From Lewinellaceae bacterium (GTDB lineage: Bacteria > Bacteroidota > Bacteroidia > Chitinophagales > Saprospiraceae): a stretch of DNA of 64,000 nucleotides. Position numbers and translations under genes: made by a program. The stretch is from contig JAHELJ010000010.1 in the NCBI GenBank assembly GCA_024644235.1, forward strand, positions 1-64,000, in the 5' to 3' direction. This document shows, in pieces, positions 36,137 to 52,683 of the stretch. Below the pieces are notes generated by a model. That model was not told the origin of the DNA. It did no database searches and saw only the letters and a list, made by a program, of their open reading frames with translations. Each line of letters begins with the position of its first letter. The first letter of the stretch is position 1.

Positions 36137-37197
36137 TCCAGCAATTCCTTTTCAAATTGCTGATGATGCCTTTCGCTCTTCTCTATGGAGTTGGAGTATG
36201 GATTCGAAATGGACTTTACAACATAGGTTTTCTAAAAGGCATAGAGTTCAGTGTTCCAGTGATTTCTGTAGGGAATCTCACGGTAGGTGGTGCGGGGAAA
36301 TCACCACATATTGAATATCTAGTAAGGGTGCTCAAAAACTATATCTACGTCAGCACCTTGAGTAGAGGATATAAAAGAAGAACCAAAGGATTTCTTACCG
36401 TAAGAGTAAACAACCGGGCGGAGGAAGTGGGTGATGAACCATTGCAGTTTAAGCGGAAATTTCCGGATGTCGGAGTGTATGTCAGTGAAAGCAGAGAGAT
36501 CGGTATTCCCAAAATCATGGCTAGCAGGCCTGAAACTCAGGTGATTTTGCTCGACGATGCCTTCCAGCATCGATCCGTAAAGCCTGGTGTAAACATACTA
36601 CTCACAGAATATGACGATCTCTTTGTCGATGATTTTCTCCTTCCGGTAGGTCGGTTAAGAGAATGGCCATCCTCTTATAGGAGGGCAGATACCATTGTGG
36701 TTACAAAATGTCCGCTGGATTTGGACGAAAGTGAAAAGCAAAGATTGATCTCAGTAATAAAACCATTGGATCACCAAACAGTATTTTTCTCCACTTACCA
36801 ATACGGCCGGCCATACCGGATGTTCTACCCGTCAGTCACTGTTTCGCTCCAGTCAAATTTGCACGCATTGGTGATCACTGGCATTGCCAGAACAAAAGCA
36901 TTGATCAATTATTTGGAAGATCACCTGGGCTCGGTGCAAATTATTGAATATGGGGACCATCACAATTTTACCCGGTACGAGATCAGTCAGTTGAAAAAAC
37001 AATTTGACACTCTTGATGAGGACCGAAAAATCATCATAACTACCGAGAAGGATGCAGTGAGACTTGAACAGCATCACGCTTATTTGCAGCAGCACAACCT
37101 TCCGATTTTCATCCTACCTGTTTTTGTATCTTTTCTGGATGGCGATCAGCCATTTGCCCAACATGTTCAAGATTATCTGCTACGGTTTAAGAGATAA
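36133..37197 (+). CDS. lpxK: Tetraacyldisaccharide 4'-kinase
   Basis: A 354-residue lipid A kinase that phosphorylates the 4' position of the tetraacyl disaccharide at the inner membrane. An N-terminal membrane helix precedes the P-loop region VGNLTVGGAGKSPH. VILLDDAFQHRSVKPGVNILLTEY is a family signature, with the metal-binding Asp pair. The C-terminal half has IITTEKDAVRL. It starts within the DUF2851 stop (ATGA) and its 3' end is overlapped by 35 bases by the next gene. The cell therefore makes lipid A, consistent with T9SS and TonB genes. Confidence 0.95.
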   Translation: MIQQFLFKLLMMPFALLYGVGVWIRNGLYNIGFLKGIEFSVPVISVGNLTVGGAGKSPHIEYLVRVLKNYIYVSTLSRGYKRRTKGFLTVRVNNRAEEVGDEPLQFKRKFPDVGVYVSESREIGIPKIMASRPETQVILLDDAFQHRSVKPGVNILLTEYDDLFVDDFLLPVGRLREWPSSYRRADTIVVTKCPLDLDESEKQRLISVIKPLDHQTVFFSTYQYGRPYRMFYPSVTVSLQSNLHALVITGIARTKALINYLEDHLGSVQIIEYGDHHNFTRYEISQLKKQFDTLDEDRKIIITTEKDAVRLEQHHAYLQQHNLPIFILPVFVSFLDGDQPFAQHVQDYLLRFKR

Positions 37198-38962
37198 ATT
37201 CAGCGCCTTAATCGGTCTTGTCGCAATCTGGTTCTTTGTTTGCGTAAATCTGATGGGTCAGTCTGCTCATATCCCTCTCGGGAGTGAAACTCAATATGCT
37301 ATTGAGCGACTACAGATCAGGTATGGAAATCCTCTAGGAATCCACACAAGCTTGAAACCCTATCGTCGATTAGATGCATTCAATTTGGTGTTTCACCTCG
37401 ATAGCGCCGAGGTGGCATTCGGTTACCGGGATCTCAATGCACTGCAATGGATATTGGACGAGAATAATGATTATCTGGAGACTGCCAATACACCGTTATC
37501 CGAGATTCAGTACATAGATAGTTCCAAGACTTTCTACACATTGAGTGAATCAGATCATAAGGCTCGTTTGCAACGTTCCACGAGCAAGCGCACTTTTCTA
37601 AAACACTTTTACCACACACCTGCTCATTTCTTTGAGCTGAATAAAAAACATTTTCAATTGAAGATCAATCCGGTTCTCAACTTTGGGTTGGCGAATGCCG
37701 CTGGTGATGATCATCTACTATTCCAAAACCAGCGAGGAATAGCTATCCGGGGCCGGATCGATACTCGCATATATTTTCATACTGAAGTTCTTGAAAGCCA
37801 ATTCAGGTTTCCCGATTATGTTGTTGACTTCACTCAAAGATTTCAGGCAGTGCCGGGAGCTGGGTTTTTCAAGAATTACCGAAGCTCAATTTTTGATTTT
37901 GATAATGGTGTAGATTTTCTTCTATCCAATGCCTACATAGGCATTCCGATCTCCGATCATGTGCATGTGGAGTTTGGTCATGGCAGACATTTTATCGGCA
38001 ATGGGATTCGCTCGCTGCTACTTTCAGATTTTTCTCCTGAGTACTTCTATCTCAAATTCAACACCCGGGTATGGAAATTCCACTATCAAAATCTATTTGG
38101 TGAATTGCTTCGACCTCGGGAGAGAACATTAGCGGATCGGCTCTTGCCAAAAAAGTACTTCGCCGCACACCATCTCAGTCTGCAGCTCACGCCAAGTTTT
38201 AATGTGGGGATTTTCGAAACGGTGGTTTTTGCGAGAGAAAATCAATTTGAGTTTCAATATCTCAACCCAATCATCCTGTACCGAAGTGTAGAGGGAGCGA
38301 TTGGTAGTCCGGATAATGTACTAATAGGTATCGATTTGAAATGGGATATGTTCAAACGGATCTCAATCTATGGTCAGTTCATTCTTGACGAGTTCAAACT
38401 CAATGAATTGACCTCAGGAAATGGTTGGTGGGCCAATAAATATGGTTTGCAGCTCGGAGCCAGGTATTTCGATGCATTTAGCATCCCATTTCTTGACCTG
38501 CAAGTGGAGTACAATAGCATCAGGCCATATACCTTTTCACATAATGACAGTACTGCCAATTACAGTCACTACAATCAGTCATTGGCGCATCCTCTTTCTT
38601 CTAATCTTCGCGAGGTTCTCTTACGGTTAAATTATCAACCTCATCCACGAGTCACTTTGCGGTTTCACAGCATGTTTGCAATCACTGGAGAAGATCCCAC
38701 CGGGGAAAACTGGGGATCCAATTTGCTGCTATTGAATCAAAACCGCGAGCAGGATTTTGGTAACGAAATCGGCCAGGGCATTGCTACGGATATAAATCTT
38801 TTTGGTTTTGATGTCTCCTACCGCTTGAAGCCTGGTTTTTATATTGATTTATATCAACAGAGAAGAATGAAAGCAAGCGCGGAGCCAACCCGTGAACTCA
38901 ATACCCGCTACTGGGGTATCGCTGTGAGATGGAATTTATCTAGAACCAGGTTGGAATTTTAA
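37163..38962 (+). CDS. Outer-membrane beta-barrel protein, Wzi/RemB-like
   Basis: Start ATG 37163 (MFKIICYGLRDKFSALIGLV) gives a signal-like N-terminus and 599 residues; an earlier start at 37064 would overlap lpxK fully and lacks a signal. The body is an alternating hydrophobic barrel pattern with FGHGRHFIGNGIRSLLLSDF and YLKFNTRVWKFHYQNLFGELL, which resembles the capsule-assembly Wzi family and the gliding protein RemB. The C-terminal strand ends RWNLSRTRLEF with the aromatic end of outer-membrane barrels. It likely sits in the outer membrane and binds surface polysaccharide. Family assignment is by eye and moderate. Confidence 0.7.
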   Translation: MFKIICYGLRDKFSALIGLVAIWFFVCVNLMGQSAHIPLGSETQYAIERLQIRYGNPLGIHTSLKPYRRLDAFNLVFHLDSAEVAFGYRDLNALQWILDENNDYLETANTPLSEIQYIDSSKTFYTLSESDHKARLQRSTSKRTFLKHFYHTPAHFFELNKKHFQLKINPVLNFGLANAAGDDHLLFQNQRGIAIRGRIDTRIYFHTEVLESQFRFPDYVVDFTQRFQAVPGAGFFKNYRSSIFDFDNGVDFLLSNAYIGIPISDHVHVEFGHGRHFIGNGIRSLLLSDFSPEYFYLKFNTRVWKFHYQNLFGELLRPRERTLADRLLPKKYFAAHHLSLQLTPSFNVGIFETVVFARENQFEFQYLNPIILYRSVEGAIGSPDNVLIGIDLKWDMFKRISIYGQFILDEFKLNELTSGNGWWANKYGLQLGARYFDAFSIPFLDLQVEYNSIRPYTFSHNDSTANYSHYNQSLAHPLSSNLREVLLRLNYQPHPRVTLRFHSMFAITGEDPTGENWGSNLLLLNQNREQDFGNEIGQGIATDINLFGFDVSYRLKPGFYIDLYQQRRMKASAEPTRELNTRYWGIAVRWNLSRTRLEF

Positions 38963-38973
38963 CCAATCCTAGA

Positions 38974-41900
38974 TCACCTGTCTTCCTCAGCTGTTGTATC
39001 GGGCAATTCCTTTATCCGGATATGTCTGAAATGCACCTGCGAACCGTGCCCAAGAAAACCGATATGTCCTTTTCTACGACTGAGTCCCGGATGCTCTTTT
39101 CCGTCGACTGTCCCCTCCCTTGTTGCTCGTCCAATATGATCCAGCAGAATGGTGGTACCATTCAGTACAACTTTGACTCTGTCACCGTCAAAGGTGACTT
39201 CCTGAGTATTCCATTCTCCCACGGGCTTTAGATACCCACGTTTTGCCGGCATAACCCCATAAAGCGATCCATGAAACTGCCAAGGTTCGAGGCTGGCGTA
39301 TTGAGGGGCATTGTTGTCCAAGATTTGGAGTTCCTTTCCAAGGTAGGCGGCATCACCCTCCAGAGGGGCATGAACCCCCAATCCATTGTTAGCACCCGGA
39401 GTTAATTTGAATTGAAACCTAAGAACAAAATTGCCGTATTCTTCTTCGGTATATAAATTGCCATGACCTCCTTCCGTAGAGGGATAGATTACAATTTCAC
39501 CATTCTCTGCCACATAATCCTTTTTGTTTCCAACCCAGCCAGCCAGATTGATGCCATTGAAAAGAGATTTGAAACCATCAAAAGATTCGGCTCTTGGCAC
39601 ATCATATACACCTTCAATAGGTCGCACAAAAATATTTCTGAACTCAAGAGGAGTGGTGTGGGCCTGTAATTCAATTGGACCTTCCCTGAAAATGGGTTGG
39701 CTTCGGTCCCAATAATTCTCCAGAATTACATTATCAGTAACCAATTCACCATTCAGGTATACCGTGACACGATCATCGATCATCAAGATTCGAAAATTGT
39801 TCCAATGTCCGACGGGATTATCTGCGATTTTTTGAGGCTGAGATGGATAGATTTCATTATTGTATAAGCCACCAGATCCAATTATTGAACCATCCTCTTG
39901 CTTCGGATCCCAGATCTGCACTTGTGGCGAGCCACGTAGATAAATACCACTGTCACCGCCTTTTTCAATTTTCCAATCCGCCAGAAATTCGAAATCACGA
40001 TATGACTCAATAGAGCAGAGGTTGTCATAGCCGTCGCCATGAAACTCAATGGCACCGTTTTTTACTCCCCAGTTTTCCCGCATCGTAAAATCGGCAATAG
40101 ACTGCTTTTGCCGTAGCATGTAAGCAAACATTGTATCACGGGCCAGAGGATTATCGACCAACCCTTGCCAGCCTGTGAGGTCCTCTCCATTGAACATCGA
40201 AATGAAGCCTGGGGATCGTGGCATTTCTCTCAAATACTTTTCCAGAATGGCCACTGAGTACGGGTCCAGTTCAGAACCAACGATACTGTCCGATCGAAGC
40301 AAGATGTCACGTACTTCCTTTCCAAAAAATCCTTCAGGCCGCACGGTCGAAGGCAGAGCAATCTGGATAGATGCCTTTGCAGCATCTTCTGCGAATTCCG
40401 GCTCTTTCATTAATTCGCTGCACCACATCAAGCTCGGATACGTAGGAGATTGGCTCAAGAGCCGGACAATATCAGACTTGAATTCTGATGGTGCATAATC
40501 CCAGATCTGCCTAAGGATTAAATATCTCTGCTCGGCACTTACCTCCTTGTATCCCACTTTTCGGATGATAGCACCCAGCGCTTCCTCTGACCGTGAAGAG
40601 CTGCCAGCAGAAGCAAGGTAATCGATTAATGGAAATATGGCTTCAGGGCCGTTCCAACTCAGCAATTGATCCAGATCTTGATCAGAAAGGTTGTCTGATT
40701 CGATTGGTTCGGGCCACATCATCTGAAATGCCACCCTGCCACCGATCCTTGGCAATAGGTCGCTTAGCGCATCATCTTGATTCTGGCTGCCTAAAGCATT
40801 AGTCAACTGGTTAACAGCAGCTTCTGGATCCGGCTCATCCTCAATTTTCACCACGATTGCCTGCAGCAGTTCCTCACGCCCATCGGAACGAATAAAGCCG
40901 GGAAGCAAACCAATCAAAGATTCGAGATTGATGGATCTGGCCATTTTGGGAATAGCCGCAAATGCAGATTGACGTAAATCCTCATCGTCCGATGAAAGCA
41001 GATTGGTTACCGCTGTAAACACTACTGGCCCGCCCCGGTTTGATAATTTCTCGATCAAAGCAACCTTGCCGCTCTTAGTACTTGATCCTAGTAGCTCGAG
41101 CATTGCAGACATGTTTGAAGCATCGGTATGACGGGACAGTTCATTGATGATATGAGATAAGAGGATTGGATCAGAAGTTGACCTGAACACGGATGCAAGC
41201 TCACCGAATGACTCACGTCCCTGGATAGAGGAGATAGTGCGAATGCCAGCCAGTTGCAGATCGTGATCTGATGCTTGAAGTGCTTTGCGAGCATAGGGAA
41301 GAGCCATAGGTTCATTCCTGGTGCCAGAAATTGATAACAACTTTAGTTGAGAAACTGCAGGCAGTTTATCATAATATTTCAGAATGGAGGTGAGAGGAAT
41401 TTCACGGTTGAGACTTAGTGCTTCGATCGCTCCCGTTCGCAGGTCTTCATCTCCTTTTTTCAGCGCCTTCAGGAGATATTTTTTAGCACCAGCACCGAGA
41501 AATGTCGAAGCCATTGTAAGTGCCCTACTCTTAATTTGGGAGCTCTGATCACTTTTCATGACGGATTTGGCAATGCTGTTAACAATATTCACATCGCCAG
41601 CTTGACCTCTGGCATTACCAAATTTGATCAACCTCTCGAAACCTCGAGCATCAACAGCTTGTGAGGTCAGCGAAGCATAGGCACTTGGGTCACCATTTGT
41701 TGCCAACCCTTCAAGTGCGATTTCTGACACCACTGGATCCGGATCGTTCACCAAAGTCCGGAGGGTTGCAATCGCTTGCGGGTGGCTGTAGGTAGCGATT
41801 GACTTTGTCAGGTTTATTTTGCAGGTACCCATCACCGAAGACACCTGTTTAATCATAGCCTCTAATGCGTCATTGGTGCCAATGGCATTCCAGGTGGCCA

Positions 41901-42360
41901 CCACAGGCTCGCATATGGTTACGACAATTTCTTGTAATCCAGAAACAGATTGGTTTGTTCCAAAATATTGTAATTGATCAATAAGGAATGCTTGGACATC
42001 AAGTGCAAGCTCCTGTTCATTGATAGATTGGATAAATTCTTTTTCGACTTGTTCACGATCTGCAGTACCCTCCTGAGCACCAAGATATTTGGCTAATGTA
42101 GACAGGGCGTATCGTGCTGATACATCATCACCAAAACCGATCGGCACCAGACGTGAAATAACCTCCTTCCATGCTTCCGGTCCATTTTCAAGCAATGCCT
42201 CGCAGGCCAATATCGTACTAGATCGGTCCGCAGTTGGAAAATCAGCAAGAATCAAATCAACTCTCTGATCAAGTGCTAGTGAATCCTGTGACCATGCAGG
42301 CATGTCTGATCCCGCTATCAATGAGATGATGAGGATTAAATGAACTAACCTATTTGTCAT
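38974..42360 (-). CDS. Exported HEAT-repeat protein with two DUF1080 (3-keto-disaccharide hydrolase) domains
   Basis: 1128 residues with a signal peptide (MTNRLVHLILIISLIAGS). Residues about 50-690 are HEAT/ARM-like helical repeats (ATLRTLVNDPDPVVSEIALEGLA; AVTNLLSSDDEDLRQSAFAAI). Two DUF1080 domains follow: one from FISMFNGEDLTGWQGL (about 715-920) and one from FKSLFNGINLAGWVG (about 930-1120). DUF1080 enzymes have a concanavalin-like fold, and characterised ones cleave 3-keto-glycosides made by Gfo/Idh/MocA dehydrogenases. Two such dehydrogenase genes lie directly upstream on the same strand. The HEAT part may be a scaffold. The specific sugar is unknown. Confidence 0.88.
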   Translation of the reverse strand: MTNRLVHLILIISLIAGSDMPAWSQDSLALDQRVDLILADFPTADRSSTILACEALLENGPEAWKEVISRLVPIGFGDDVSARYALSTLAKYLGAQEGTADREQVEKEFIQSINEQELALDVQAFLIDQLQYFGTNQSVSGLQEIVVTICEPVVATWNAIGTNDALEAMIKQVSSVMGTCKINLTKSIATYSHPQAIATLRTLVNDPDPVVSEIALEGLATNGDPSAYASLTSQAVDARGFERLIKFGNARGQAGDVNIVNSIAKSVMKSDQSSQIKSRALTMASTFLGAGAKKYLLKALKKGDEDLRTGAIEALSLNREIPLTSILKYYDKLPAVSQLKLLSISGTRNEPMALPYARKALQASDHDLQLAGIRTISSIQGRESFGELASVFRSTSDPILLSHIINELSRHTDASNMSAMLELLGSSTKSGKVALIEKLSNRGGPVVFTAVTNLLSSDDEDLRQSAFAAIPKMARSINLESLIGLLPGFIRSDGREELLQAIVVKIEDEPDPEAAVNQLTNALGSQNQDDALSDLLPRIGGRVAFQMMWPEPIESDNLSDQDLDQLLSWNGPEAIFPLIDYLASAGSSSRSEEALGAIIRKVGYKEVSAEQRYLILRQIWDYAPSEFKSDIVRLLSQSPTYPSLMWCSELMKEPEFAEDAAKASIQIALPSTVRPEGFFGKEVRDILLRSDSIVGSELDPYSVAILEKYLREMPRSPGFISMFNGEDLTGWQGLVDNPLARDTMFAYMLRQKQSIADFTMRENWGVKNGAIEFHGDGYDNLCSIESYRDFEFLADWKIEKGGDSGIYLRGSPQVQIWDPKQEDGSIIGSGGLYNNEIYPSQPQKIADNPVGHWNNFRILMIDDRVTVYLNGELVTDNVILENYWDRSQPIFREGPIELQAHTTPLEFRNIFVRPIEGVYDVPRAESFDGFKSLFNGINLAGWVGNKKDYVAENGEIVIYPSTEGGHGNLYTEEEYGNFVLRFQFKLTPGANNGLGVHAPLEGDAAYLGKELQILDNNAPQYASLEPWQFHGSLYGVMPAKRGYLKPVGEWNTQEVTFDGDRVKVVLNGTTILLDHIGRATREGTVDGKEHPGLSRRKGHIGFLGHGSQVHFRHIRIKELPDTTAEEDR

Positions 42361-42375
42361 AGTTTCTTCTTTGAT

Positions 42376-43641
42376 TTAAACGCTCCACGCTCCTCGCATG
42401 GATTGATTGATCATTCGGTTGGCTACTTCGTTTCCGATAAATTGCTCTTTCTGCGGATCGTAAGTCAGGTTTTGACCAAGACGGAGGGCTATCACACCAA
42501 GGTTTACCAAAGTGCAGGAGCGATGGCCATTATTTTCGTTCAAGGTAAATTTCTCTCTGGTCCTCACGCTGCGACTAAATTGTGTGAGTTGTGGCGCGGG
42601 ATCAGGTAAGCTTGATATAAGTTGGTGGATATTTGGCAAGTCAGATTTCAGACCGGGGAAGAGTTTGCCAGAAGGACCTTCGATGAATGCGGCATCTTTG
42701 TCGCGATTTTCACCATCCAGAACGATTTTGCAACCATCGGCATAGGTGAATTCTATTCTCCTCCATGAACCAGCTGCATCATAATGCTGCAAGGGGGCAT
42801 CCACAAATACTTCTGTCGGACTAGTATCATCTTTCTCTAACAAATACTGAACAGGATCGAGATAGTGTTGCCCCATGTCGCCAAGACCCCCGCCATCATA
42901 ATCCCAATAACCCCTAAACTTAACATGTACCCGGTCAGGATGATATGGTTTGTATGGAGCTGGGCCCAGCCACATATCGAAGTTGAGGTGATCTGGTACC
43001 GAAAAGGCATCAAGATCTGTTCTCCCGCTCCAAAAGAATTTCCAATCAAAGCCGGTAGCTCTGTTAAGAGTGATCTTCAAAGGCCAACCAAAGGCTCGGT
43101 TTTCGACCAGTTTTTTGACTGGATGTATCGGTGTACCTAAACCATAAAAGTTGTCGGCAAATCGAAACCAAGTATTCAGTCTAAACATCCTACCATGCTG
43201 TTGAACTACTTTTTTCAAAGCAATTCCCTCACCTATTGTTCTGGTCATTGGCTTTTCGCACCAGATGTCCTTACCAGCACGTGCGGCATCTGCCGCCATG
43301 ACCGCGTGCCAATGTGGAGGTGTGGCAATGTGGACTACATCGATATCTGGCTGTTGGAGCAACTCACGATAGTCACTATACACATCAATCTGGTCCTTTG
43401 CAAGTGTCTGAGCCTTTTCTAAATGATTCGAATCGACATCGCAGATGGCTACTAACCTTCCTTCATAATCGAAATGATAGACTCCCATGGCTCCTACTCC
43501 GATAACGGCCTTGGTAAGTTGATCACTGGGAGCGGTAAATTCTTTGCCACCCAATACGGAGCGGGGTACTATGGAAAAAGTCGCAGCTGCCAGTGTCGTG
43601 TTACGAACAAATGCCCGGCGATTCATGCCCTGATTACTCAT
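42376..43641 (-). CDS. Gfo/Idh/MocA-family oxidoreductase with Tat-type signal (1)
   Basis: Start ATG 43641 (MSNQGMNRRAFVRNTTLAAATF) contains an RR-x-F-x-R twin-arginine-like motif; a start at 43626 (MNRR) is also possible. The NAD(P)-binding turn is VIGVGAMG, the Lys-Pro dyad is CEKP, and the late GDMGQHYLDPVQ carries the catalytic-His region. These enzymes oxidise sugar hydroxyls, often at C3, using a tightly bound cofactor. It lies 15 bases upstream of the HEAT-DUF1080 gene in the same direction, so the two likely form one pathway. Substrate unknown. Confidence 0.9.
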   Translation of the reverse strand: MSNQGMNRRAFVRNTTLAAATFSIVPRSVLGGKEFTAPSDQLTKAVIGVGAMGVYHFDYEGRLVAICDVDSNHLEKAQTLAKDQIDVYSDYRELLQQPDIDVVHIATPPHWHAVMAADAARAGKDIWCEKPMTRTIGEGIALKKVVQQHGRMFRLNTWFRFADNFYGLGTPIHPVKKLVENRAFGWPLKITLNRATGFDWKFFWSGRTDLDAFSVPDHLNFDMWLGPAPYKPYHPDRVHVKFRGYWDYDGGGLGDMGQHYLDPVQYLLEKDDTSPTEVFVDAPLQHYDAAGSWRRIEFTYADGCKIVLDGENRDKDAAFIEGPSGKLFPGLKSDLPNIHQLISSLPDPAPQLTQFSRSVRTREKFTLNENNGHRSCTLVNLGVIALRLGQNLTYDPQKEQFIGNEVANRMINQSMRGAWSV

Positions 43642-43711
43642 ACTTGCTTTTTGATTTTGGCGCAGCAAATATACTTCTTATCGACAAAGTCGAAGGGCAC
43701 CCAGCCCTTGG

Positions 43712-45019
43712 TTACACCTTTGGCAAATCCCAGCCATTGTGGTAGGCTGCATTCAGAAGCTTGGTAGCCTTCCTACTGGTAAATCCGTCTTTGGCAGGGT
43801 TCCAGAACACCTTCTCTCCTGTCTTATAAGCTATGTTGCCCATGTGGCAGTTTACGGCAGCCACACTACCCACATCAATGGGACAGGTCAGGGCAGTACT
43901 GTCTTTTGATCGTACTGCATCAAGAAAATTACTGGTGTGACGATCCAGATCGCTACCTTCCCGTTCACGAAGGGTTACCGCATCCATTTTACCTTTTTCT
44001 GGAATGACCTCCCAACCGCGACGGTCGACGACAAGTGTCCCATTGTTACCAAGAAAGGCTATGCCGTGATTGCGGCCAAAATTTGCGCTGTCAATCCCAG
44101 TGCCGTGCTCCCAGATCATATTAAATCCATCATATTCGTAGATAGCCTGCAAAGTGTCGGGTGTTTCGGATGCGTCATCCGGATAGGCCAACTTGCCTCC
44201 GGCAGCATACACTGTATGTGGTGCTTTTGCCTTCATACCCCACAAAGCAATATCCACCAGGTGAACGCCCCAGTCGGTCATTAAACCTCCGGCATAATCC
44301 CAAAACCAACGAAAGTTGAAATGGAACCTATTTTCATTAAACGGTCTGGTAGGAGCCGGTCCCAGCCACATCTTATAGTCTACCTCTACCGGTACATTTG
44401 TATCAGGTTTAGGGGAAATGGCTTTCATCCATCCCTGATAAGCCCATACCTTCACCAACCGGATGTTCCCTAAAGCTCCAGACCACACAAATTCCATTGC
44501 ATCTTTGAAATGGGGACTACTGCGCTGCCATTGACCCACTTGGACAATTGATTGGTATCGTTCAACAGCCCTTTGCATGATCTGACATTCCTCTATGGAA
44601 TTTGCAATCGGCTTTTCTACATAGACGTCTTTACCAGCGGCACAAGCGTCAACCATCATCTTGCAATGCCAGTGATCCGGTGTGCCAATGATTATGACAT
44701 CTATTTCTGAATCGTCTAAAAGCTCACGGTAATCACCGTAAGAATCAGGTTCATATTCCAATTTGGATCGAATCTCATCAAGTCGTCTTTTTACTACACG
44801 CTGATCTACATCACAAATCGCCCGGCAATGAATACCGCCATTTCGAAACATTGATTGCAAATTTGACCAGCCCATTCCATTGCAACCTATCACCCCAACC
44901 TGAACGTCATCTGATCGCCTGAATCTGCTATTGATTAGAAAAGAAGGGGTGGAGAATGCTGCCATTCCCATTGCACTTTTCTTCAAGAAAAGCCGACGTG
45001 AGGATTCATTCATTTTCAT
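43712..45019 (-). CDS. Gfo/Idh/MocA-family oxidoreductase with Tat-type signal (2)
   Basis: 435 residues beginning MKMNESSRRLFLKKSAMGMAAFSTPSF, a Tat-like signal. The Rossmann turn is VGVIGCNGMG, the dyad VEKP, and the catalytic region MTDWGVHLVDIALWG. The C-terminal tail (FTSRKATKLLNAAYHNGWDLPKV) is typical of the exported subgroup paired with DUF1080 proteins. It precedes paralogue 1 by 70 bases in the same direction. Only distant similarity links it to paralogue 1, so they probably act on different substrates or steps. Confidence 0.9.
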   Translation of the reverse strand: MKMNESSRRLFLKKSAMGMAAFSTPSFLINSRFRRSDDVQVGVIGCNGMGWSNLQSMFRNGGIHCRAICDVDQRVVKRRLDEIRSKLEYEPDSYGDYRELLDDSEIDVIIIGTPDHWHCKMMVDACAAGKDVYVEKPIANSIEECQIMQRAVERYQSIVQVGQWQRSSPHFKDAMEFVWSGALGNIRLVKVWAYQGWMKAISPKPDTNVPVEVDYKMWLGPAPTRPFNENRFHFNFRWFWDYAGGLMTDWGVHLVDIALWGMKAKAPHTVYAAGGKLAYPDDASETPDTLQAIYEYDGFNMIWEHGTGIDSANFGRNHGIAFLGNNGTLVVDRRGWEVIPEKGKMDAVTLREREGSDLDRHTSNFLDAVRSKDSTALTCPIDVGSVAAVNCHMGNIAYKTGEKVFWNPAKDGFTSRKATKLLNAAYHNGWDLPKV

Positions 45020-45079: not shown

Positions 45080-45862
45080 ATGACAACAATGACAAATAAG
45101 TACAAACCATACCTTCTGGCTGAAACAAATTGGAAAGAGGTGCGAGAAATCGAGTACGAATTGGCTGTCCTCCCATGGGGAGCAACCGAAGCGCATAATT
45201 TCCACCTTCCCTATGCTACCGACAACTATCAGGTTGAATACGTGGCGGAGCAAGCTGCGGCTCACGCCTGGGAAGCAGGGGCCAAGGTGGTTTTGCTCCC
45301 GTGTGTTCCTTTTGGAGTAAACACTGGTCAACTTTCGGTAGACCTCTGCATTAATATGCGACCTGCTACCCAATTGGCCGTATTGTATGATGTAGTGGAT
45401 GTCCTCAACCGGCAGGGTGTCGATAAGTTGATTATTCTCAATGGACACGGAGGCAACGATTTCAAAACGATGATACGTGAGTTGTCTATGACTTTCCCCA
45501 ATGTCTTCATTGCTTGGGTGAATTGGTATCGGGTGGCAGATTGGAATCTCTATTTTGACGAGCCGGGTGACCATGCCGGGGAAATGGAAACCAGCTCAAT
45601 GATGCATATTCGACCTGATCTGGTACGGCCACTGGTAGAGGCTGGTCCGGGAGAAGCAAAGACATTTCGCCTAGATGGATTTAAAGAAGGCTGGGCGGTA
45701 AGCCAACGTGATTGGCACAGAGTAACTACAGATACAGGAGTTGGTAATCCGGCAAAGGCTACGGCCGAAAAAGGCAAATTATACCTTGATGATACCGTTG
45801 AGAAACTGGCAAAGTTTTTTGTCGATCTGGCAAAATCAACTAAAGAGAACTTGTACGAATGA
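45080..45862 (+). CDS. Creatininase family protein
   Basis: 260 residues matching the creatinine amidohydrolase fold. The metal ligands appear in VLPWGATEAHNFHLPYATD (E37, H42, D48) and the GHGGND motif in IILNGHGGNDF; a late Glu lies in DHAGEMETSSM. Family members hydrolyse cyclic or linear amides (creatinine, the FAPy intermediate, mycofactocin peptide). The substrate here is unknown. It is divergent from the Gfo/Idh genes across 60 bp, so it may share their control. No signal peptide, hence cytoplasmic. Confidence 0.9.
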   Translation: MTTMTNKYKPYLLAETNWKEVREIEYELAVLPWGATEAHNFHLPYATDNYQVEYVAEQAAAHAWEAGAKVVLLPCVPFGVNTGQLSVDLCINMRPATQLAVLYDVVDVLNRQGVDKLIILNGHGGNDFKTMIRELSMTFPNVFIAWVNWYRVADWNLYFDEPGDHAGEMETSSMMHIRPDLVRPLVEAGPGEAKTFRLDGFKEGWAVSQRDWHRVTTDTGVGNPAKATAEKGKLYLDDTVEKLAKFFVDLAKSTKENLYE

Positions 45863-49692: not shown

Positions 49693-52683
49693 ATGGATAA
49701 GCTTTTTCGCATAGTGATATCAGTTTGTTTGATCACTTCAACTCTACAGACAGCTTCTGGACAGATGTTGAGGGAATTTGGTGCATTGACCTGGCAGCAA
49801 AAGGACAGCATTATTTCTACTTTGTACGAAAGTGGTCTGGAGGCAGTATCATTCCCAATGATTGATAGTGCCTATCAATTCGAAAAAGCCAAGGAGCACA
49901 CCAGAACAACTCCACTTGCCATCTTTGCAATGTGGCAAGGCATCCGGTTTATGACCTTAGATAGCCTCGTATCATCTAAAGCTTACTTTGACGAAGCGGA
50001 CCAGTTGTGTCAGAGCAGGCAAGCAACAAGAGATTCGCTATACCCGGATCTTCTACTCAACATGGCTGAGTTACATATTCGGGGAAATAGTCGTGAACAA
50101 GCAGGAGTTTTCCTGCGACGTGCTGCCAATCATTTGGCAAAATCTCAATCCGGGAATGCAAACTTATACCTCAATACCTTAAACCAAGTTGTGGCTTTGG
50201 AATCTTCCAGTGGAGATGTTGATACTGCTGAAGCTTACTCAAGAAGAGCCCTGCAATTTGCCCAGGAGAGATTCGGACAAACTTCGATCCAGTACTTACA
50301 GGCATTGGCTGGTATTGGAGAGGTACATCAGGCACGGGGCGATTTGCGCCGGGCCAGCCGTACTATCTTGCAAGCTTACGAATTGGCGAAGACTCATCTG
50401 GCCGATGATGATATTAACAAGGTTGCCCTCGGTCGAAATGCAGCCAGTGTACATGAAACCCTCGGCCGTGCTGAAGAGGCGGAGGAGATATACATCGAAC
50501 TTATTGACTTTTTTGAAAGTAATTCCAGAGCGCAAAGGGGAACCCTCTATCCCGTCACATTAAATCAAGTCGGAGCATTCTATTTGAATCAGGAGAACTT
50601 TGAGAAAGCCTATGAGTATTACAACAAGGCCAACATTCTTTTTACCCTACGCACGGAAAGAACCGACCCCAATTACATTATATCCCAAAGTAATGTTGCG
50701 GATCTTCTCAAGTGGAAGGGTCAGTATGTAGAAGCGCAACAATACTATGAAGATGCTTTACAATATGCACCGCAGGTCTTTGGTGCAAACAGTTGGCTGG
50801 CAGGTCACCTACACAAAAGTTTAGGTGAATTGCATGTATCGTCTGGAGATCTTCAGAAAGCGGTGGTCCATCAGGAAAGAGCACGCGACATCTTCGAACT
50901 TGCCCGTGGTGATCTAAGTTTGGAATATGCCCAAGCTCTTGGAGCATTAGGCAAGACACATGATGCGATGGGTTCCAAAGACCTTGCAGAAGAAAATCTT
51001 ACAGCTGCGCATGACCAATTGGTTGCCATCTATGGCTCTGATAATCCAATAGTTTTTGCTTCGAGTCGTCAACTGGCGGAGTTCTATTCCGGAAAAGATC
51101 AGACTCAAGCGAAGCGATATTATCTGATGGCTGGCGATCAGCTCTTAACTACACTGTATACCAAGCTGGAATTCCTCCTTGCGGAAGAGCGAGCAGAATA
51201 CATCGACAGTTTCGAATCTTTCTTTTCGAACTATCTCGACTTCTGCCTGAATAATCCTAATGATGCATCATTGAATCGGCAGGCGCTGGAAATGGCAGGA
51301 GCCCTAAAGACATCTGATTTCCGCCCAGATCTGACAACAATTACCAGAAGCCTCAGAAATGCGACAGACTCCTATCGTCAGCAATACTCAGCATGGCAAG
51401 AGCTTAGAGTGAGAATCATTGATCAGCAAAATCAAACTCTTCAGCAGCAATCTCTGGCAGAGATTGAGCTGTCTCAAATGATCGAGGAAGCCAGGCAGAT
51501 TGAGAGCAGCCTGATCGGTGCACTCAGAAAGGGCGACCGGTTTGAACCGGAACTGGTTAACAGAATACAGCAAAGAATAGATCAGCAGACAGCATATCTC
51601 GAGTTCTACAATCTGGAGACAATAATTGATTCTCTTTCCTCAGAAACCGAAGTTTACGCCTTTATTTTATCCAATTCAGGCACTCCAAAGGTTGTTCGAA
51701 TTGTAGATTTTGCGGGACTGGATTCCAGGGTTATCCCTAACAGTTCAGATTATGAAAAGTTATGGAAGCCCCTGGAGCAATTCTTAGAAGGTAAAACTAA
51801 AATCACTATCTGTGTCGATAATGGTCTTGACCGATTTCCGTTTCATCTCATTCCCATTGAATCCGGTAAGATCTTACATGATCGGCATTCATTTCGATAT
51901 GTAAGTCCGGGAGGTATTCTACCATTTGGAGAAGGGGTAAGAGTTGATATACGAAATGCTAGTCTGACAGGGGGAGCTCTATATGATTTGAACCCTGAAG
52001 CACTTATGAAGGGCAATCAACAATGGGGTTATAATATCGGCTTACACCAAACATCAGATGAAAAGAAATTACTTGGATCTGAATTTCCGAGAGTAACAGC
52101 TTCTATTGGGGAGATTAAGGCGATAGAGGTTATGCTGTCTAAAAAGAAGTGGAGTACAACTCTGTCAGAAGGTTCGGATGCTACGGAATCAAATCTAAAA
52201 AGGTTGCTGTCGGATAATCCCTCCGGAATAATTCATATTTCCACCCATGCTTTTAAGATCGAGCCGATCAAAATGATAAAGTACAGGCACCCAATGATGT
52301 CTTTTGGATTGGCGCTCACAGGAGCCAACTATATTTGGCGAGGATCGGAAGTAGCTCAGGAGGCTGAAGATGGCCTATTGACCGCTCTTGAGATCGAAAC
52401 CATAGATCTTTCAGCATGTGATCTTTTAACACTTCATCTATATGAGAGTGGAGAATCCACGAGTACTTCGATGCTCGGGCAAGCTTTCAGAATTGCTGGA
52501 GCTAAGCAAGTTTTGATGAATCTTTGGCAAACAGATCCTGCTGAGAGCAAAATCTTTCTTACGACCTTCTATAAAAATCTATTGAAAGAGGAAGTACCTT
52601 CCAAGGCATTGGCAAAGACCCAGGCCAAAATGCGAAAGAAATTGAGTCAGGAGACATGGGGGGCATTTGTGCTAGTGGAATGA
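49693..52683 (+). CDS. Exported TPR-CHAT domain protein (caspase-like protease fold)
   Basis: 996 residues with a signal peptide (MDKLFRIVISVCLITSTLQTASG). Residues about 40-480 are tetratricopeptide repeats (AFYLNQENFEKAYEYYNKANILF; LADLLKWKG-type units). A helical linker (about 530-640) leads to the C-terminal CHAT domain (about 690-995). The catalytic pair is present: H852 in IHISTHAF and C909 in DLSACDLLTL, followed by AGAKQVLMNLWQTDP. CHAT proteases cleave after TPR-mediated recognition; cytoplasmic ones act in defence (gasdermin or Craspase systems). The signal peptide puts this one in the periplasm or outside, which argues against those roles. Target unknown. Confidence 0.9.
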   Translation: MDKLFRIVISVCLITSTLQTASGQMLREFGALTWQQKDSIISTLYESGLEAVSFPMIDSAYQFEKAKEHTRTTPLAIFAMWQGIRFMTLDSLVSSKAYFDEADQLCQSRQATRDSLYPDLLLNMAELHIRGNSREQAGVFLRRAANHLAKSQSGNANLYLNTLNQVVALESSSGDVDTAEAYSRRALQFAQERFGQTSIQYLQALAGIGEVHQARGDLRRASRTILQAYELAKTHLADDDINKVALGRNAASVHETLGRAEEAEEIYIELIDFFESNSRAQRGTLYPVTLNQVGAFYLNQENFEKAYEYYNKANILFTLRTERTDPNYIISQSNVADLLKWKGQYVEAQQYYEDALQYAPQVFGANSWLAGHLHKSLGELHVSSGDLQKAVVHQERARDIFELARGDLSLEYAQALGALGKTHDAMGSKDLAEENLTAAHDQLVAIYGSDNPIVFASSRQLAEFYSGKDQTQAKRYYLMAGDQLLTTLYTKLEFLLAEERAEYIDSFESFFSNYLDFCLNNPNDASLNRQALEMAGALKTSDFRPDLTTITRSLRNATDSYRQQYSAWQELRVRIIDQQNQTLQQQSLAEIELSQMIEEARQIESSLIGALRKGDRFEPELVNRIQQRIDQQTAYLEFYNLETIIDSLSSETEVYAFILSNSGTPKVVRIVDFAGLDSRVIPNSSDYEKLWKPLEQFLEGKTKITICVDNGLDRFPFHLIPIESGKILHDRHSFRYVSPGGILPFGEGVRVDIRNASLTGGALYDLNPEALMKGNQQWGYNIGLHQTSDEKKLLGSEFPRVTASIGEIKAIEVMLSKKKWSTTLSEGSDATESNLKRLLSDNPSGIIHISTHAFKIEPIKMIKYRHPMMSFGLALTGANYIWRGSEVAQEAEDGLLTALEIETIDLSACDLLTLHLYESGESTSTSMLGQAFRIAGAKQVLMNLWQTDPAESKIFLTTFYKNLLKEEVPSKALAKTQAKMRKKLSQETWGAFVLVE

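Follow-up and report, generated by a model that had tools for sequence, protein, structure and literature searches.

A conserved dehydrogenase–DUF1080 gene pair with a HEAT-repeat fusion: a putative oxidation–elimination/hydration module for glycosides in Bacteroidota

Gene content of the locus

We examined a stretch of 64,000 nucleotides (the window) from a Lewinellaceae bacterium (GenBank assembly GCA_024644235.1, contig JAHELJ010000010.1, positions 1 to 64,000), in which a gene for an 1128-residue protein carrying HEAT repeats and two DUF1080 domains follows a gene for a Gfo/Idh/MocA oxidoreductase, GfoC2. This pair of genes recurs in other Bacteroidota, and it is the main subject here. A second oxidoreductase gene, Gfo1, lies upstream on the same strand, and a creatininase-family gene diverges from it. 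The features are as follows.

38974..42360, minus strand: P0001, HEAT-DUF1080-DUF1080 protein, 1128 amino acids (open reading frame (ORF) list, Pfam, AlphaFold model)
40225..42297, minus strand: HEAT-type alpha-solenoid of P0001, residues ~22–712 (Pfam HEAT_2, modelled helices, VIA matches)
39601..40224, minus strand: DUFa, first DUF1080 domain of P0001, residues 713–920, with Q813 in PQVQIWD, plus H901
38977..39600, minus strand: DUFb, second DUF1080 domain of P0001, residues 921–1128, with E1010 in KELQILD, plus H1105
42376..43668, minus strand: GfoC2 (P0002), Gfo/Idh/MocA oxidoreductase with full-length PF19051, 430 amino acids from a TTG start
43712..45019, minus strand: Gfo1 (P0003), second Gfo/Idh/MocA oxidoreductase, 435 amino acids
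45020..45079, no strand: divergent intergenic region, 60 bp
45080..45862, plus strand: P0004, creatininase-family protein (Pfam Creatininase)

An earlier note on this DNA, made from the sequence without database searches, had described this layout accurately. The three same-direction genes are ORFs of the minus strand at 38974–45019, and the creatininase gene (Pfam E 1.4e-59) diverges from Gfo1 across the 60 bp between them. Both proposed oxidoreductases match PF01408 (GfoC2, E 2.3e-20; Gfo1, E 3.2e-19) and begin with apparent twin-arginine translocation (Tat) motifs, NRRAFVRN in GfoC2 and SRRLFLKK in Gfo1, while Pfam confirms the HEAT and two DUF1080 domains of the 1128-residue protein, whose N-terminus appears Sec-like; all of these export signals were called by eye, without a signal predictor. 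GfoC2 ends 15 bp before the start of P0001, and 43 bp separate the end of Gfo1 from the TTG start of GfoC2. That start gives a protein of 430 amino acids; two ATG codons, at 43641 and 43626, are nearer the Tat motif.

A conserved pair in Bacteroidota

In a main sample of 395 Bacteroidota genomes, a GfoC2 profile (E<=1e-120) matched 15 genomes in 7 families. For 14 of them GfoC2 is followed directly, on the same strand, by a gene for a DUF1080 protein, which has HEAT homology by BLAST or Pfam in 12 of the 14. Eight of these proteins, including that of the window, have the HEAT-DUFa-DUFb architecture; four genomes of one family (L106–L109) have HEAT plus a single DUF1080 after GfoC2, and in the remaining two loci DUFa-DUFb (L068) or DUFb (L072) rides on a short N-terminus. 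The GfoC2 N-termini of L106–L109 carry R-K in place of R-R. Two further pairs came from other collections, a contig of a metagenome-assembled genome (L060) and Parabacteroides distasonis NZ_OY725779.1 (L144, with the pair WP_005856828.1 / WP_009275971.1), both with HEAT by Pfam; by eye the P. distasonis protein is very like that of L067, and these two may be closely related. The spacing between the genes, taken from the earliest potential start codon, lies between -13 and 48 bp across the 16 pairs, apart from 122 bp in L068. The earlier note had proposed, as a check, a conserved neighbourhood in other genomes, with the HEAT-DUF1080 architecture accompanying the dehydrogenases: such a neighbourhood exists as the GfoC2–DUF1080 pair, and co-occurrence holds for GfoC2 but not for Gfo1, which is not a conserved neighbour.

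Searches from the other gene gave a similar picture. Matches to P0001 (E<=1e-60) were detected in 18 of the 395 genomes, the window's own included; among the other 17, seven span all or much of HEAT plus both DUF1080 domains, G421 spans the two DUF1080 domains, and nine cover DUFb alone. We retrieved 14–20 kb of neighbourhood around the hits in 16 of 19 other genomes, leaving out three with a DUFb match only (G217, G292, and G414). A GfoC2 homologue (57–67% identity) lies directly upstream of the HEAT-DUF1080 or shortened DUF1080 protein in L060, L062–L069, and L072. The DUFa profile (E<=1e-40) matched 12 of the 395 genomes, and the nine hits with E<=1e-100 all fall within GfoC2-linked proteins and in the 15 GfoC2 genomes (Fisher p 8.5e-15, uncorrected, with related genomes not independent). 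The remaining three are single-domain proteins (L102–L104); one of these belongs to a GfoC2 genome (G241), where it lies on a different contig. A class-level sample of 295 genomes added no new pairs, all 6 of its GfoC2 genomes being already in the first sample, and a single scan of a viral collection returned no relative. We also observed free-standing DUFb-like proteins of 219–258 amino acids with 62–66% identity to DUFb (L061, L070, L071, L075, L076, and L077), and in L075, L076, and L077 a Gfo-type gene adjoins them.

The dehydrogenase

GfoC2 matches PF19051 over its full length (432 bits), whereas the match of Gfo1 is partial (77 bits); the genome holds 18 PF19051 hits in all. The GxGxxG, CEKP, and GQHY motifs of GfoC2 are kept in 10 of 10 aligned rows, and the best solved matches to its profile are the dehydrogenases 8tdf and 8tdh. 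Against the NCBIfam equivalog model for BT_2158 glycoside 3-dehydrogenase (NF058561, cut-off 750), Gfo1 scores 164.3 bits; the score of GfoC2 is weighed below.

The DUF1080 domains

P0001 matches the 3keto-disac_hyd family (PF06439) in two stretches (E 5.7e-81, 271.5 bits against a cut-off of 26.8), and its DUF1080 domains taken singly score 144.7 and 137.4 bits, each above that cut-off. Profiles of both DUFa and DUFb match solved eliminase/hydratases of Bacteroides thetaiotaomicron and Alistipes (8rr2, 9fbe, 8tda, and 8v31), the best match of DUFb to a solved DUF1080 chain having E 9.5e-31. The earlier note had described DUF1080 enzymes as cleaving the 3-keto product; this homology supports such a role in outline, but "cleave" is too simple a word, as the titles of the B. 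thetaiotaomicron structures name a hydratase or an eliminase/hydratase.

The genome carries 21 DUF1080 domain hits in 16 ORFs, all of which we aligned residue by residue together with the three DUFa-like domains. Among 11 proteins of the GfoC2-linked pairs, E1010, Q1012, D1015, and H1105 of DUFb are invariant in 11 of 11 rows, the Glu lying within an E-x-Q-x-x-D motif and H1105 near the C-terminal end. In DUFa, Q813, Q815, D818, and H901 are invariant in all 10 of the 11 rows that carry the domain, so that an invariant Gln (Q813) stands where DUFb (E1010) keeps the E-x-Q Glu of BT2157, and H901 shares one alignment column with H1105. The same rule of Gln in DUFa and Glu with His in DUFb extends to the P. 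distasonis protein, in both its domains, and to the four single-domain pairs. All 16 pairs keep a C-terminal DUF1080 with Glu and His, and 11 of the 16 have DUFa. H901 aligns, in a low-scoring stretch, with chain position 250 of 8rr2 and 3osd (BT2157), which is probably His275 of the B. thetaiotaomicron enzyme, the offset being inferred from an assumed chain start; a B. thetaiotaomicron H275N lyase variant is deficient in hydration according to an excerpt of PMC13273386. The earlier note had regarded the loss of a catalytic pocket from both domains as fatal to its proposal, and DUFb at least keeps the residues examined.

Tandem DUF1080 proteins are not unusual in themselves, although the earlier note had listed the doubling among the unusual features of P0001: the genome has five tandem ORFs (P0001 among them), a tandem protein has been solved (4jqt, BT3469), and 5 of the 16 pairs have a single DUF1080. 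Three of the other tandem ORFs (C180, C238, and C154) have Gln in the first domain, Glu in the second, and His in both, while C208 has Arg then Glu and no C-terminal His in either. The four loci concerned are L007/L002, L011/L005, L012/L008, and L020/L018. Neither residue is universal: elsewhere in the genome several DUF1080 domains keep Glu without His, and Gln occurs in the single-domain L014.

These patterns suggest that DUFb, with Glu and His kept, would be the likely catalyst, and that DUFa would be a specialised second domain serving another step or substrate binding. One alternative holds that DUFa is a carbohydrate-binding non-enzyme, and that HEAT and DUFa merely hold DUFb on the glycan. 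The invariant Gln in the Glu column fits this idea, as does the absence of DUFa from 5 of the 16 pairs, none of which lacks the Glu/His DUF1080. A model of DUFa built from five sequences (mean predicted local distance difference test (pLDDT) 72.2) also matches the binding module CBM66 (4b1m, Foldseek E 1.1e-7). However, the same model matches DUF1080 structures better (3u1x, E 1.5e-12; 3osd (BT2157), E 3.3e-11; the eliminase/hydratases 8tda and 8rr2, ~7e-11), with moderate template modelling scores of ~0.5–0.6 and root-mean-square deviations (rmsd) of 5–12. DUFa further retains its His and is conserved at least as well as DUFb (mean column identity 71% against 66% in alignments A1 and A2, of ten rows each from slightly different genomes), and DUFa-like domains are found alone (L102–L104). 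We regard a purely binding DUFa as plausible, if somewhat short of an even chance.

The HEAT solenoid

Pfam assigns HEAT_2 (PF13646) to four stretches of P0001 (E 8.8e-18, 64.8 bits against a cut-off of 27.7). An AlphaFold model of the full-length protein from a three-sequence alignment (mean pLDDT 56.8) has nearly unbroken helices from residue ~22 to 712, with good confidence only at ~190–500 and 590–670 (pLDDT mostly 68–86), low confidence before residue 160, and low confidence in the DUF1080 domains. The earlier note had estimated roughly 600 residues of HEAT, close to the ~600–690 residues of the modelled helical part. The best VIA-align matches of the model are HEAT/ARM solenoids (Z 13.8–16.9, rmsd 6.5–17.5); the comparison mostly probes residues 164–544, and a Z of ~13 is common for helical repeats according to the tool. 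The values lie somewhat above that level and are uninformative on function. Since DUF1080 and Gfo genes are common in this genome, the HEAT fusion is the unusual part of the locus.

Surroundings of other pairs

Our scan of neighbouring genes, which took in a selection of them, returned glycan-related functions at several of the other loci. The P. distasonis pair is preceded by genes for a SusC-like receptor (an ORF without annotation that scores as a TonB plug), for SusD and a sulfatase, and for a Gfo of GH109 type; the L067 pair likewise lies beside SusC- and SusD-like genes. A sigma-70 factor and a FecR-type gene precede the P. distasonis SusC/SusD locus, whose record (NZ_OY725779.1) is labelled a plasmid and yet has recQ, murB, and other chromosome-like genes. 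Neighbours elsewhere include a pectate lyase (L060), GH67 (L072), sulfatases (L106 and L108), a fucosidase-like protein (L107), and, near the lone GfoC2 of L105, arabinofuranosidases. Together these neighbours point to glycan breakdown in general and to no single substrate.

The window itself offers no substrate clue among the scanned genes nearest the locus, which encode cell-wall, LpxK, dihydrofolate reductase, glycosyltransferase, and methyltransferase functions. A 632-residue ORF at 37064–38962, convergent with the HEAT-DUF1080 gene, had no Pfam match and looks outer-membrane barrel-like by eye. Farther off, at 49693–52683, a 996-residue protein with tetratricopeptide repeats and a CHAT peptidase-like domain adjoins glycosyltransferase genes. 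TIM-barrel genes of PF01261 gave 31 hits in the genome, none of them within the 64-kb window and the nearest on the contig at 72268, which is compatible with the DUF1080 protein carrying out both elimination and hydration; an enzyme encoded elsewhere in the genome could also act. At L108 (5014–5862) a PF01261 gene diverges from GfoC2 beside the single-DUF1080 pair.

Proposed function of the pair

Oxidation-elimination routes for glycosides have been recognised only recently, and the locus is probably a scaffolded form of such a sugar-breaking route, judging from sequence comparisons. We favour, with reasonable confidence, the reading that its core is a two-gene periplasmic oxidation–elimination/hydration module for glycosides, with the lyase/hydratase on a HEAT scaffold. 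The reaction class is proposed because of homology and the shared function because of adjacency: a dehydrogenase and a lyase/hydratase, each identified by homology only, are encoded together in 14 of the 15 sampled genomes with GfoC2. The exported 3-keto-glycoside pathway of the earlier note thus survives as the best reading of the profile matches to solved enzymes and of the conserved pair, without Gfo1 and the creatininase as partners.

In the order of steps that we infer, GfoC2 would leave the cytoplasm through the Tat system, carrying its NAD(P), and would oxidise a sugar hydroxyl, most likely at C3, of a glycoside freed from a glycan by other enzymes. The DUF1080 protein would then act on the 3-keto product, breaking its glycosidic bond by elimination and adding water to give a 3-keto-sugar and the remainder. 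HEAT-type solenoids commonly bind proteins, and the solenoid here would most likely serve as a docking scaffold, keeping GfoC2 or some other partner close to the DUF1080 domains.

Several observations weigh against this reading. GfoC2 scores 155.2 bits against the BT_2158 cut-off of 750, so oxidation at C3 is not established and GfoC2 is not classed as a BT_2158 equivalog, and its matches to 8tdf and 8tdh span only about the first 270 positions. In one of the 15 GfoC2 genomes (G165, locus L105) the 14 kb examined contain no DUF1080 match. The complete pair is also rare and patchy: a set of 40 relatives, 24 from the same family, gave no full-length match, yet a further genome of that family (G201) carries it. 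The neighbouring enzymes vary by locus, so no single substrate follows from them. Docking is opposed by the divergence of the HEAT part, which shares 20–25% identity between proteins whose DUF1080 domains share 51–69% (the exception being the DUFb of L069, at 40%), and by the short N-termini of L068 and L072 (2 of the 16 pairs), which have no Pfam HEAT at E<=0.001; docking is thus not proven and cannot be universal.

These last points favour a different role for the solenoid, as a spacer, as an anchor in the cell envelope, or as a docking site for other proteins, with no link to GfoC2 and with the adjacency of the genes reflecting shared regulation only. Besides diverging fast, the HEAT part varies in length, and L068 and L072 keep the pair without a detected HEAT match. 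Yet HEAT homology is found in 14 of the 16 pairs, in distant families, and the protein-binding habit of such solenoids argues for a partner. An unlinked solenoid is a genuine possibility that we rate slightly below the balance.

At the other extreme, the scaffold might work as an assembly line, in which GfoC2 docked on HEAT would hand its unstable 3-keto product on to a pair of divergent DUF1080 sites in one polypeptide, DUFa and DUFb would split elimination and hydration between them, and the reactive keto-glycal would not be released or need a separate TIM-barrel lyase; we consider this speculative and rather unlikely. Unlikelier still is that the DUF1080 protein is an ordinary glycosidase acting on the glycan directly, with GfoC2 acting later on the released sugar. 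There is precedent in excerpts of the literature, where THTE_1561, a DUF1080 protein from a Planctomycete, is cited as an endo-xanthanase/lichenase (PMC9007349) and DUF1080 is proposed for direct cleavage of the xanthan backbone (PMC5673643). However, those solved homologues that have an assigned reaction carry titles naming C3-oxidised sugars, and the dehydrogenase gene is a near-constant partner (14 of 15).

Gfo1 and the creatininase

The favoured module of GfoC2 and the DUF1080 protein does not extend to the other two genes of the locus. In a family sample of 80 genomes, creatininase homologues (E<=1e-50) were detected in 16 and Gfo1 homologues (E<=1e-90) in 13, the window included; eight genomes besides the window have both, never on one contig, in assemblies that are fragmented. 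No Gfo match was found within ~1.5 kb flanks of 15 other creatininase loci, and neither GfoC2 nor a HEAT-DUF1080 protein was found at 14 other Gfo1 loci, one of which (L135) has a weak DUF1080 match. Around the other pairs we detected no creatininase (BLAST E<=1e-5; by annotation in L144), and the few Gfo1-like genes are weak matches, on both sides at L069 (22–27%, plus a fragment of 36% at the edge of the locus) and on the opposite strand at L068 (27–32%). The earlier note had grouped Gfo1 with the pathway and had pointed to the creatininase beside it; neither proved to be a conserved partner.

A conserved four-gene unit including Gfo1 and the creatininase was therefore rejected, as neither gene travels with the pair in the sampled genomes. 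That the four genes nonetheless form one pathway is very improbable: the short spacing (43 bp from Gfo1 to the GfoC2 start, 60 bp from the creatininase to Gfo1), the keto-inositol hydrolase IolN among creatininase relatives (P0004 scores 43 bits against a cut-off of 245), and the Gfo gene that also precedes GfoC2 in P. distasonis, but of GH109 type, are set against the lack of co-occurrence just described. The creatininase is probably incidental, and Gfo1 could be a second dehydrogenase, or a reductase, in this organism.

Implications and comparison with known systems

A two-gene unit that joins a docking-type repeat on a putative lyase/hydratase to one preferred dehydrogenase would make substrate channelling directly testable. 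Among the carriers of the pair is the gut species P. distasonis, which is open to deletion and growth tests and has it in a SusC/SusD locus together with a sulfatase and a GH109-type enzyme. A simple hypothesis for a division of work between the two domains comes from the order of Gln before Glu that recurs in tandem DUF1080 proteins.

The closest parallels are the B. thetaiotaomicron BT2156–BT2158 locus and Alistipes AL2, in which a DUF1080 eliminase/hydratase (BT2157, identified with 3osd by its title; 8tda, 8rr2, 9fbe, and 8v31) likewise has a Gfo dehydrogenase nearby. In the excerpts of the sources, BT2158 is a periplasmic glycoside 3-dehydrogenase (PMC11300592), BT2156–58 are listed as a sugar phosphate isomerase/epimerase, a DUF1080 protein, and a Gfo protein (PMC10434189), and hydration is ascribed to "the same or another lyase" (PMC13273386). 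The solved B. thetaiotaomicron DUF1080 chains are single-domain, whereas here a HEAT solenoid and a second DUF1080 are fused. BT2156 belongs to PF01261, a family absent from the 64-kb window, so the present locus is not classed with BT2156–BT2158, and GfoC2 falls far below the equivalog cut-off for BT2158. The Caulobacter 3'-ketolactose pathway of LacABC and DUF1080 (CCNA_01705, with a proposed hydrolase role) also places a DUF1080 enzyme after periplasmic oxidation of a disaccharide, as given in an excerpt of PMC9007349; it differs in having a three-component membrane dehydrogenase in place of Gfo and a single DUF1080 domain.

BT3469 (4jqt) shares the tandem, but at 431 residues it leaves no room for HEAT. 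The Gln-then-Glu order of P0001 recurs in three of the tandem ORFs described above. Among the four other tandem ORFs, only C180 has a PF19051 Gfo gene (51 bits) just downstream, and two of the tandem contigs end close by. The CBM66 binding modules appear, from the model, to be of the same fold class as DUFa, which nevertheless matches DUF1080 enzymes better. A fusion of DUF1080 with an alginate-lyase domain is in print (excerpt of PMC13027841), while in the open-licence papers searched we found no description of a HEAT-DUF1080 fusion with a fixed GfoC2 partner; in the one paper that mentions both DUF1080 and HEAT repeats (PMC10434189), the terms refer to separate genes. A DUF1080 gene beside a Gfo dehydrogenase and the tandem DUF1080 are both already known; on sequence comparison, it is the HEAT fusion linked to GfoC2 that is the distinctive part of this locus.

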